From Gammaproteobacteria bacterium (GTDB lineage Bacteria; Pseudomonadota; Gammaproteobacteria; GRL18), in the NCBI GenBank assembly GCA_015488755.1, contig WFNB01000097.1:1-62122 (forward strand): 62,122 nucleotides of DNA, in the 5' to 3' direction. Below the pieces are notes generated by a model, which was not told the DNA's origin, did not search any database, and was given only the letters and a program-made list of their open reading frames with translations. The position numbers and the translations under genes were made by a program. Shown here one piece after another: positions 47,468 to 51,248 of the stretch; the stretch's first letter is position 1; the number at the start of each line of letters is the position of its first letter.

Positions 47468-49936
47468 CTAATCATCATCTTCAATGATCCGTTTACTTTC
47501 AATCTCCGTAACGCCCTTGGCAAACTGGGTACCCTCTGGTTGACTAATACGCAAGTAAAAATACTCTGAGGACTCGGCTTTATAATCCCCGATAATGGTC
47601 ACAGGAATGGCGGTGGCTAATTCCCCTGCTCGAATAATTGCCCGACCACTGCTGGCAATATAGTCCTTACCTGCTCGTGCGGTGCCTTCAACCGTCTCAT
47701 AAAAGACTGAGATATCATGGCTGTACTTTTTATTGATTGCTAATAAAAAGTAATTGATATAATTACTATTACTTTCCGTTACTGTGGTATACACCTCACT
47801 AGCTTGCTCAGGGATTTTAGCCAATATCATCAAATTAACCTGCTGGTCAATCACCTTCTTGGCTTCTTCTAAAGAGCTGCTTTGTGCGCTAATCAATGCG
47901 AGTGCCTTGGTAAAGTTTCGGGTCGCCATATCGTTTTGACCGTATTGCTCATAATAATAATGCGCCAAATCAAGTTGGCGTTGTACTAAGCCTTGGTCAT
48001 TACCCGTAGCACTTTCTAAAATTGCCATGGCCAAGGTGGCGATGGTTTGCTCTGCCTGATTTAAGGCATTAAGCCAAGTAGCTTGTTCATCACTCGTAGG
48101 CGTGCGATGAAAGAGTTTTTGGTAAATATCTGCAATAATTTGTGTCTCACTCATACCAGCAAAGCGTTCATTAAAGGCTGGGGTATCGCTAAAGTCTTCT
48201 GCGATTGCGGCAAAGCCACCACCCTGCTCTTGTATAAGACACGCCCAAGTATTGATTTGTGCTGTATGTGCCAATTGTACATAGTTGGCAAGGTAGGCCT
48301 TAATCACTTCCTCAGTTGCTTGTTCTGAGCAGTTATAAGCATATTGTAATTGCTCATTATGGGCATCGCTCAAGGTGTGCACCACAAAGTCCGTTTGATA
48401 GTCTTGACCCGTTTTCTCGGCATAAATCGTAGCCGTTTGACTATAATCATCAATCGCAGAGGCTGGTATCAGCACTTGTATGCTTTGTCCTAAGCCGACA
48501 CTCACAGGCTCACTTTGAAAAGGAGCGCCATCAATGGAAAGCAGGCCATTATCAATACTCAGGGTGGTCATTTGGCGAATACCCCGCAATGGGATGGCCT
48601 TGGAGCTAACCCATTGTTCCGCAGTGGCATCATTATAGCCACTAAAAGTAAAGGCTTCCATTGGCTCATTAAGTGGCTCGCCAATGGCAATGGGGTCGAT
48701 AATAACACCATTTTTACGCCCATCTAAATCAAATAAGCCACCATCCTTTAGGGTCAATTCAAGACATTTAGCACTGCTTTGTTGCCAGAAATCCTGTGGT
48801 ATGAATTGGCGCTTATGCTCATTATCAAATTTATAGAGAAAAAAGCCCTGTGTGGGTAGATTTTGATTAAGGCACAGCTCAACCTTAACTGAGCCACCGA
48901 TGACTGAGGTGCTTTGAAAGGCCAATAAGCCAAATGGAAAGTGTATGCCAGCATCCACATCATCGGGGAGTGTTTCTAAGCTTGCCTGAGATAAGATATT
49001 ATTCTGCACACTTAAGGTCATCGTTACACCGCCATGAGATACGGTTTTCGTGTGAGTAACCGGTGCTGGTGGAGGGGGTGGCGCAGGTGCAGCAAGCGTG
49101 GTACTGCTAAAGGTGTCACTGACCCCACCAATGGTCAATATGGTATTGACGGTGCTAGAATAATTGCCTGCTGAAGTATGGCGTACCTTAATAGTATTGC
49201 CATTGCTAACACTGCTGGCGGTTGTGAGCCATGTACCGCTATTATTGATTTCATATTCACCACCGACAATGCTAATGGCACTATTGCTATTGATGCCATT
49301 GACACTAATGGCATTACTGGTGATCAAACTAGCCAAGGCCACATTGCTTTGGTCACTAAAGGCAAAGGCATCGGGTGTGGTATCCACCAACACCAGCTGA
49401 CGGCTGACTTTATAGGCAGGTATGGTATGATTAAAATGGATCCAACCGATATTTTCCGCCCAAGCATAACCATCAAAATCGCCTGTGGTGGCATTAATAG
49501 TCACTTGTGAATGAGTGGGATTAAAGTTCACCCAGCCGATGTTTTCACCCCAGCCATAGCCGGAGAGGTTACCCGAGCCATCATTATTGACACCATAATT
49601 TGTTGCCAATGAATTAGTATAGCTAAAACTACCACCACCTGTATGCGTACCCAAACGGATCCAACCGATATTTTCCGCCCAGACATAGCCTTCAAGGTGA
49701 TCATCAAAAACAGTAACAGCTTCATGAGTGCTATTAAAATTCAGCCAGCCGGTATTTTCTGACCAAGCGTATTTGTCGGTAGTGGAAATACTGTCGGCAA
49801 AGACAGTTGAGTAAATAAAAAAAGTACCTAATAGTAATAAGAGCAAGGGGAGTTTTTTAGTGCCTAAGAGCTTCTTTTCTAGCTTGCCTTGTGTATCTTG
49901 AGAGCCTGCCATTTGTTTATTCATTTTCATACTCAT
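47468..49936 (-). CDS. Secreted WSENxGW / choice-of-anchor-U / DUF4214 / Calx-beta-like protein
   Basis: 822 residues. A signal peptide (LPLLLLLLGTFFIYSTVFA) precedes four 'YAWSENTGWLNF'-type repeats (50-180), a linker with the Pro run APPPPPAP, and a choice-of-anchor-U-like domain (LELTLKDGGLFDLDG, KNGVIIDPIAIGEP). A DUF4214-like helical segment (IIADIYQKLFHRTPTSDEQATWLNALN) and a C-terminal Calx-beta-like domain (FYETVEGTARAGKDYIASSG, VTIIGDYKAESSEYFYLRI) follow. It is extracellular and probably calcium-dependent. It shares the anchor-type domain with the giant protein at 1-6176. Confidence 0.82.
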   Translation of the reverse strand: MSMKMNKQMAGSQDTQGKLEKKLLGTKKLPLLLLLLGTFFIYSTVFADSISTTDKYAWSENTGWLNFNSTHEAVTVFDDHLEGYVWAENIGWIRLGTHTGGGSFSYTNSLATNYGVNNDGSGNLSGYGWGENIGWVNFNPTHSQVTINATTGDFDGYAWAENIGWIHFNHTIPAYKVSRQLVLVDTTPDAFAFSDQSNVALASLITSNAISVNGINSNSAISIVGGEYEINNSGTWLTTASSVSNGNTIKVRHTSAGNYSSTVNTILTIGGVSDTFSSTTLAAPAPPPPPAPVTHTKTVSHGGVTMTLSVQNNILSQASLETLPDDVDAGIHFPFGLLAFQSTSVIGGSVKVELCLNQNLPTQGFFLYKFDNEHKRQFIPQDFWQQSSAKCLELTLKDGGLFDLDGRKNGVIIDPIAIGEPLNEPMEAFTFSGYNDATAEQWVSSKAIPLRGIRQMTTLSIDNGLLSIDGAPFQSEPVSVGLGQSIQVLIPASAIDDYSQTATIYAEKTGQDYQTDFVVHTLSDAHNEQLQYAYNCSEQATEEVIKAYLANYVQLAHTAQINTWACLIQEQGGGFAAIAEDFSDTPAFNERFAGMSETQIIADIYQKLFHRTPTSDEQATWLNALNQAEQTIATLAMAILESATGNDQGLVQRQLDLAHYYYEQYGQNDMATRNFTKALALISAQSSSLEEAKKVIDQQVNLMILAKIPEQASEVYTTVTESNSNYINYFLLAINKKYSHDISVFYETVEGTARAGKDYIASSGRAIIRAGELATAIPVTIIGDYKAESSEYFYLRISQPEGTQFAKGVTEIESKRIIEDDD

Positions 49937-49996: not shown

Positions 49997-50221
49997 CTAA
50001 TCGTTAGGGGGATGTACTCTGTGCAAGGGGAAGCCCCCTAAAACCACTGGCGCATCGATATCACCGGCCATTTGTAATTTTATTCCCGTAATATCTGAGA
50101 TGATTTTGGCATCTTCATTCATTACTTGCATAAAAGCACCCACTTGCATGAGCAGTAGCGTATCAGATGACTCAAGCTTAAGTTCCTGATAGCGTTGCAT
50201 TAATTTTTTTGATACAACCAT
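49997..50221 (-). CDS. MutS domain-I-like small protein (DGR accessory MSL type)
   Basis: 74 residues from ATG 50221, preceded by AGGAAAAAAG; an upstream-extended frame to 50272 would run through the GC hairpin. LMQRYQELKLESSDTLLLMQ, VGAFMQVMNEDAKIISDITGIKL and VVLGGFPLHRV match the N-terminal mismatch-recognition domain of MutS (Q-Y-x2-K, G-x-F, EDA, GxP-x-H) but nothing else of MutS is present. Small MutS-like proteins of this kind (MSL) are known accessory genes of diversity-generating retroelements. It sits directly after the putative variable region, as expected for that role. Confidence 0.75.
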   Translation of the reverse strand: MVVSKKLMQRYQELKLESSDTLLLMQVGAFMQVMNEDAKIISDITGIKLQMAGDIDAPVVLGGFPLHRVHPPND

Positions 50222-50250: not shown

Positions 50251-50270
50251 GCAGGGGGGAAACCCCCTGC
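50251..50270. promoter_or_regulatory. 8-bp stem with GAAA tetraloop after the variable region
   Basis: GCAGGGGG (50251-50258), loop GAAA (50259-50262), CCCCCTGC (50263-50270). It lies 49 bp after the stop codon of the DUF1566 gene and 30 bp before the MSL start. A GC-rich hairpin/cruciform of 7-10 bp with a GNRA-type loop near the end of the variable region is the known target-site feature of diversity-generating retroelements. A plain terminator reading is less attractive because no T-run follows. Confidence 0.75.
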
Positions 50271-50318: not shown

Positions 50319-50460
50319 CTATTGTCCACCTCGTACTGGCCAGACATAATCGTTACCCGTCTTAACGTCGTTGCCGACAACGCCATCGCCGAGGTCCACG
50401 GACCAAGCGTCGCCGGGAAGGCCCACGTAGGTAGTAGAGGACCAGTACCAACTAGACTGC
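50319..50460 (-). other. Putative DGR variable region (VR)
   Basis: The 26 codons at 50349-50426 (reverse strand) have 50 G/C of 78 bases (64% by hand count), in an AT-rich genome. Adenines are scarce (12 of 78), no codon ends in A, and most end in C or T (GGC, CTT, CCC, GAC, TCC, CTC, GTT and so on). This fits a template full of AAC/AAT codons whose A positions were changed at random. Conserved Trp/Tyr framework residues (SSWYWSSTTY, YVWPVRGGQ) flank it. VR borders are approximate because no template repeat is available. Confidence 0.75.
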
Positions 50461-51248
50461 ACCGAAGCAAACGGGTGCCCCGTTGGCAGAGCTGGATTGA
50501 CACGTTGAAAATCAATCAGACTGTGCAATTCTTTAACATTAGGTAAACGCCAGTCACCGGCACTGGAACCATCACTCAGACCACAAGCACCATTGGCTAA
50601 CGTGTTGGCATCGGTTAATGCGGTGGCAAAGTTATGAGTACCAAAACAATTGGCATTTTTTAGCCAGATAAGACCCGTACTATTATCGGTGACGGTACCA
50701 TCAGAATTATCGCTAAATCGGGGGCTGGCATGGGCTATGCCTTTTTTTAAGTCACCATCTTGTCCGGTACCGGCACAGGCAATAACACTACCTGCCGTGT
50801 TATAACAAAGATTTTGGCCGGTTTGGGGGACGGGTGCTGGATTTGCGGTACCAGTATTTAAACCCCAATTGCCACTTTGCAGACTCCAGAAGGTTTTGCC
50901 TGTGACTACATCGCCAGTGGTGGCACCATTGCCATTATCACTTACTGGTGCTTTGCTCATAACCTCATCCAATGTATGACCCGTTGCACCAGGGCCTGCA
51001 CCCGGTTCACTAAAGGTCGTGGTGCGTTTAGTGCCAGTAGCTCCCGTAGCCAAACGATTATAGACGGACTCTAGACTATACATGGCACTACCGCTATTAG
51101 TCACCGCTGCAGGAGAATCCAGACTGCCGGCGAAAACAGAGAGAGGGAGTAAGCTGAACAGTAAAAAAAAGAATAAAGAAAAAGGGCAAGAGGAAAAAAC
51201 CTTACTTAACGGGGTTTGCGTTAGTGTGTATTGCTTGTTGCTTGACAT
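50319..51248 (-). CDS. DUF1566 (C-type-lectin-like) DGR variable protein
   Basis: 309 residues. A signal peptide (CPFSLFFFLLFSLLPLSVFAG) precedes a Thr/Gly-rich segment (45-160) and a DUF1566/Lcl C-terminal domain: FSDNSDGTVTDNSTGLIWLKNANCFG, DWRLPNVKELHSLID, SSWYWSSTTYV, VWPVRGGQ. This fold displays its C-terminal loops as a ligand-binding face and is a common DGR target. RBS AAAGGAG precedes the ATG. The last ~35 codons differ sharply in composition. It is probably exported to the envelope or outside; the ligand is unknown. Followed by the hairpin and MSL gene. Confidence 0.85.
   Translation of the reverse strand: MSSNKQYTLTQTPLSKVFSSCPFSLFFFLLFSLLPLSVFAGSLDSPAAVTNSGSAMYSLESVYNRLATGATGTKRTTTFSEPGAGPGATGHTLDEVMSKAPVSDNGNGATTGDVVTGKTFWSLQSGNWGLNTGTANPAPVPQTGQNLCYNTAGSVIACAGTGQDGDLKKGIAHASPRFSDNSDGTVTDNSTGLIWLKNANCFGTHNFATALTDANTLANGACGLSDGSSAGDWRLPNVKELHSLIDFQRVNPALPTGHPFASVQSSWYWSSTTYVGLPGDAWSVDLGDGVVGNDVKTGNDYVWPVRGGQ

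Follow-up and report, generated by a model that had tools for sequence, protein, structure and literature searches.

A probable 5' remnant of a DGR MSL accessory gene beside a putative DGR target in a gammaproteobacterial genome

The 74-residue open reading frame (ORF) described here, located in the window (the whole 62,122-nucleotide stretch of gammaproteobacterial DNA that was analysed), is probably what remains of the 5' part of an MSL (MutS-like small protein) accessory gene of a diversity-generating retroelement (DGR), of which Avd, the template repeat (TR) and the reverse transcriptase (RT) are gone from the genome. The gene belongs to the right family but is an incomplete relic, rather than a target-linked factor of a new kind. 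The features of the locus are:

49997..50221 (-), truncated MSL ORF, 74 aa; the N-terminal 65-66 residues of MutS domain I plus an unrelated 8-residue tail
49997..50026 (-), 3' end of the ORF (HRVHPPND, then stop), where MSL similarity ends; unique in the genome
50222..50240 (-), ribosome-binding region (AGGA), just 5' of the MSL ATG
50251..50270 (-), GC-rich hairpin GCAGGGGG-TTTC-CCCCCTGC, between the VR stop codon and MSL; folded as DNA
50319..51248 (-), target gene, secreted Lcl_C (DUF1566) protein of 309 aa, the only Lcl_C protein of the genome
50322..50475 (-), putative variable repeat (VR) at the target 3' end, departing from the TRs of relatives mainly at template adenines

Extent of the ORF and of its predicted fold

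The ORF occupies exactly positions 49997-50221 on the minus strand, and the plus-strand reading of the same interval contains many stops. Its product (MVVSKKLMQRYQELKLESSDTLLLMQVGAFMQVMNEDAKIISDITGIKLQMAGDIDAPVVLGGFPLHRVHPPND) is read from a start codon with an AGGA-type ribosome site 7-8 nt 5' of the ATG, without internal stops. The product matches the Pfam MutS_I model with an E-value of 4e-8 (33.8 bits, against a curated cut-off of 20.6) over residues 7-69, corresponding to profile positions 3-66 of 113. Domain I is the sole MutS domain matched, the clamp and ATPase domains being absent. The original prediction of a 74-residue MutS-domain-I protein with its own ribosome site was thus confirmed, except that it took the gene to be complete. 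The stand-alone MSL relatives are 105-116 aa long and continue with ...GGFPKSGLDAYVGKLVRAGHSVAIALQ..KERHIKETIRV past the breakpoint of the window copy, which departs from the family right after ...VVLGGFPL and reaches a stop eight residues on, so that ~40 family residues of the domain (one helix and two strands) are missing. The next gene begins only 60 bp beyond the ORF and, therefore, there is no room in between for the remainder of MutS domain I. The possibility that the 3' end is a dispersed repeat was rejected, as this end occurs once in the genome.

AlphaFold models were obtained for the full-length MSL of an intact cassette (L101; pLDDT 89, pTM 0.80) and for the 74-aa version of the window (pLDDT 67, pTM 0.50, a poor model). 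The L101 model superposes on crystal structures of MutS domain I with a TM of ~0.8, and the best Foldseek matches of MSL are MutS structures. The window protein lacks three elements of the L101 protein, namely its last helix (66-78) and two strands (82-88 and 94-100). The models suggest that the full-length MSL has the MutS domain I fold and that the form found in the window folds poorly.

The target site and the missing DGR machinery

As had been predicted, the ORF directly follows a target, adjoining on its downstream side the Lcl_C gene with DGR-type VR features. The final 150 bp of this gene are VR-like, with a GC3 of 0.68 (versus 0.39 in the remaining gene) and 15% A. Since its own TR is absent, the adenine bias of the window VR was scored against the TRs of relatives. 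It differs from the TR of L107 at 28 of 49 adenines (57%) versus 28 of 106 other bases (26%, p=2e-4), and four other heterologous TRs gave a bias with p=0.002-0.02. The hairpin that follows (20 nt, perfect, with an 8-bp GC stem and a 4-nt loop) has a counterpart in most related loci, and in BPP-1 such a structure is needed for efficient retrohoming (PMC3240598). Compared with the BPP-1 target site, composed of IMH plus hairpin/cruciform (PMC3240598), the window is alike in having a GC-rich 8-bp stem and a 4-nt loop downstream of VR, but its loop is TTTC instead of GRNA, the consensus of the phage, and the hairpin lies ~50 nt past the stop codon, with the MSL gene next. On the same strand, positions 47468-49936 encode an 822-aa neighbour with WSENxGWxNF-type repeats, a choice-of-anchor U domain, DUF4214 and Calx-beta domains. 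Calx-beta domains also occur in the target of the L101 cassette.

Intact cassettes were found in six genomes of several phyla (L100, L101, L105, L107, L108 and L111), in the order target with VR, hairpin, MSL, Avd, TR and DGR RT. In all six loci MSL directly precedes Avd, followed by TR and RT, and the target gene is directly 5' of MSL in four of them, the contigs of L100 and L108 ending at that point. The L101 Avd matches PHROG 3206 ("Avd protein of DGR") and the L101 RT is matched by PHROG/Pfam. The cassette RTs with a readable motif, L101 included, carry IGNLTSQ (DGR type, versus QGxxxSP), the RT of L107 being incomplete as it is cut by the contig end. Of 125 TR/VR mismatches (six comparisons, five cassette loci), 117 fall on TR adenines. 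The MSL-carrying cassettes look like ordinary DGRs, and MSL is a DGR-cassette gene, as already published: it has been assigned to PF01624 and named as a DGR accessory alongside HRDC and Avd (PMC10053308). The window copy agrees with this description as a stand-alone MutS domain I adjoining a DGR target, but ends after ~65 of the 105-116 residues, has no neighbouring Avd, and its genome is missing TR and RT.

Several further observations were made in these loci. The RT of the L111 cassette carries an in-frame TAG. In Thiodictyon, a second DGR (L176, 466-7440) consists of Avd, TR, RT and two Lcl_C-like VRs, without MSL. It was also considered whether this DGR, which lies in the genome of L106, could diversify the MSL-linked target of L106; this was rejected, as its TR fails to match the L106 VR in the adenine pattern.

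The window genome is a 3.5 Mb, 100%-complete assembly of 122 contigs. No RT is found within the window and no RVT_1 match in the whole genome, in agreement with the RT absence originally noted, and the L101 RT used as a query gave no match in it either. A search for the VR 3' core that allowed two mismatches recovered only the VR itself, so that the genome has no template repeat, and it has no second Lcl_C gene; no Avd lies beside the window MSL. The RTs of the same genus that show the motif are of the QGxxxSP type, hence not of the DGR type. An absence of any DGR from carrier genomes, which would speak against an accessory gene, is thus seen for the window genome, but not for the family, given the six cassettes. 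In the scenario we prefer, an orphan target, the post-VR hairpin and an MSL stub would have been left after loss of Avd, TR and RT, and the stub is probably non-functional. Against a relic, its frame is open and could still be expressed, and an RT might lie on an unassembled piece, considering the number of contigs.

A variant of this explanation, possible though we consider it rather less than even, is that the target and the 5' piece of MSL were copied here as a remote DGR target, the master DGR being lost or located elsewhere. The MSL piece would then have been carried along because the needed hairpin sits just before MSL, and this hairpin is retained. MSL genes with ragged 3' ends stand right behind targets in L112, L115, L117, L119 and the window. 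The two genes upstream of the window locus, gspK and that of a 190-aa protein (p190), are also found in a genome of the same genus (G001), where this gspK-p190 flank is followed by a different gene, without target-MSL. However, the window genome has no second target, TR or RT, and an in-place deletion of Avd-TR-RT yields the same anatomy, so that the present data fit both alike.

MSL integrity and the presence of the RT

The original prediction had proposed that MSL may be linked to the target site rather than to the RT. The cassettes, in which MSL lies between the target and Avd-TR-RT, do not bear this out, and the state of the MSL genes points in the opposite direction. MSL was counted as intact when its frame stayed open up to ~residue 100 of the family or beyond, and L114 and L116, loci cut by contig ends, were left out. 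It is truncated or frameshifted in six of the seven genomes without a DGR RT (window, L110, L112, L115, L117 and L119) versus one of the eight with a DGR RT (L118), with a post hoc Fisher p of 0.010. The categories were set after the data had been seen, and the sample is small and mostly composed of MAGs. As the genome of L106 contains another DGR whose TR does not match, a second count considered only RTs adjoining MSL (p=0.041). In terms of the suggested co-occurrence with RT genes, an intact MSL is found in seven of the eight genomes with a DGR RT and in only one of the seven without. This exception is G471 (84% complete), with two full-length MSLs. Without RT, MSL often remains beside the target yet decays, which is expected if MSL is needed only together with the RT, and speaks against a role of MSL at the target in the absence of the RT.

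It is accordingly quite unlikely that the window ORF is a functional, minimal MSL of 74 aa acting at the VR/hairpin, whether no RT is resident or one is provided in trans (by a phage, a plasmid or a missed contig). The intact frame with its ribosome site and the retention of target, VR and hairpin would fit such a protein. Remote DGR targets are known (PMC8867640), and the full-length MSLs of G471, where no DGR RT was found, also count in its favour and against a relic. On the other hand, the domain core lacks one helix and two strands and is modelled with low confidence, the other RT-less MSLs are truncated at differing points, which is a pattern of decay, and the TR is absent from the genome.

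In Desulfonema magnum (L110, 10297-11208) a long tandem array encoding SGVQKLHFCIF-like repeats begins immediately behind the frameshifted MSL. In Magnetococcales (L102, 877-4419) a target-MSL-target-target array is found on a contig without RT, and elsewhere in that genome an intact MSL stands alone beside a kdsA-like gene (L103, 2930-3253).

Family membership and a proposed role of MSL

The window ORF is mostly 54-67% identical to the stand-alone MSLs of the cassettes, versus 33% to the full-length MutS of its own genome, and it carries the MSL-specific LLMQVGAFMQVM motif; the predicted MSL kinship is therefore well founded. A phylum-wide search recovered four stand-alone relatives (46-63% identity to the window ORF), and a contig scan with their alignment yielded 16 loci, partly the same records, from hosts including Magnetococcales, Verrucomicrobia, Thiodictyon, Anaerolineales, Desulfonema, Brocadiaceae, Thermoanaerobaculales, Elusimicrobia and others. 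Searches of 57 relatives and of 369 same-class genomes yielded only MutS matches besides the window itself, and an MSL closely related to the window copy was not found. A scan of viral contigs with the 74-aa protein gave two matches (L043 and L044), discarded as antisense chance matches, and a second scan, with alignment A1, gave zero relatives. The inspected phage and plasmid matches were likewise set aside, being either full MutS or a MutS_I domain that forms the end of a fusion protein of 805 aa and retains its Glu. The latter, found in an unannotated human-gut phage record (L046, 3901-6318; DFYEMY), means that the MutS_I domain travels in other mobile elements too. That the ORF is a decayed piece of an ordinary mutS unrelated to DGRs, as its domain I homology and such isolated MutS_I domains could suggest, is highly improbable, given that the 879-aa MutS of this genome is intact on another contig, that the best similarity is to MSLs, and that the MSL-specific motif occurs in a gene sited beside VR and hairpin.

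MSL resembles MutS in its domain I fold and Phe wedge, but is devoid of the connector, clamp and ATPase domains and of the Glu of the Phe-X-Glu motif, through which MutS binds mismatches. This Glu is kept in 49 of 49 MutS sequences (as FYE or FFE) and is absent from every MSL, which has FMQ, or FMH, FMR and FMK in one each; in L111 the motif segment is lost. The window copy reads GAFMQVM (FMQ). The best PDB sequence match of the MSL profile is 1WBD, the MutS E38Q mutant, a substitution that abolishes the discrimination between mismatched and normal duplexes (PMC3848065). In addition, non-B DNA can be bound by MutS even without the Phe (PMC3437207). MSL may thus bind distorted DNA without discriminating mismatches.

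In the Brocadiaceae MSL (L111, 413-730), an in-frame deletion of six residues, MQVGAF, between two MQV repeats takes away the Phe wedge, although this MSL sits in a DGR cassette; this case counts against the explanation preferred here.

Considering the known domain roles, an MSL without ATPase or clamp cannot start repair alone. The MSL of intact cassettes is a stand-alone MutS domain I that has kept the Phe wedge, has Gln (sometimes His, Arg or Lys) in place of the Glu, and is devoid of ATPase, clamp and MutL-binding parts. In the mechanism we propose, it would bind or kink distorted DNA during retrohoming, candidate substrates being the hairpin/cruciform behind VR or the mismatched heteroduplex of cDNA and VR. 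Such binding would neither discriminate mismatches nor signal repair, and might aid integration or shield the new mutations from the host MutS. Our literature search found no functional or biochemical study of MSL. The general proposal, that MSLs form a class of their own among MutS domain I proteins, free-standing and with systematic loss of the mismatch-discriminating Glu (of the E38-to-Q type), and that in DGR retrohoming they bind the post-VR hairpin or the mismatched heteroduplex without discrimination and guard new mutations from mismatch repair, is speculative, and we hold it to be doubtful as a whole.

The main value of this case lies in the loss of the Glu and in the decay pattern of MSL, which provide a testable idea on a little-studied DGR accessory. 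If DGRs do carry a MutS-like shield or hairpin binder of their own, this would bear on how adenine mutations survive mismatch repair.
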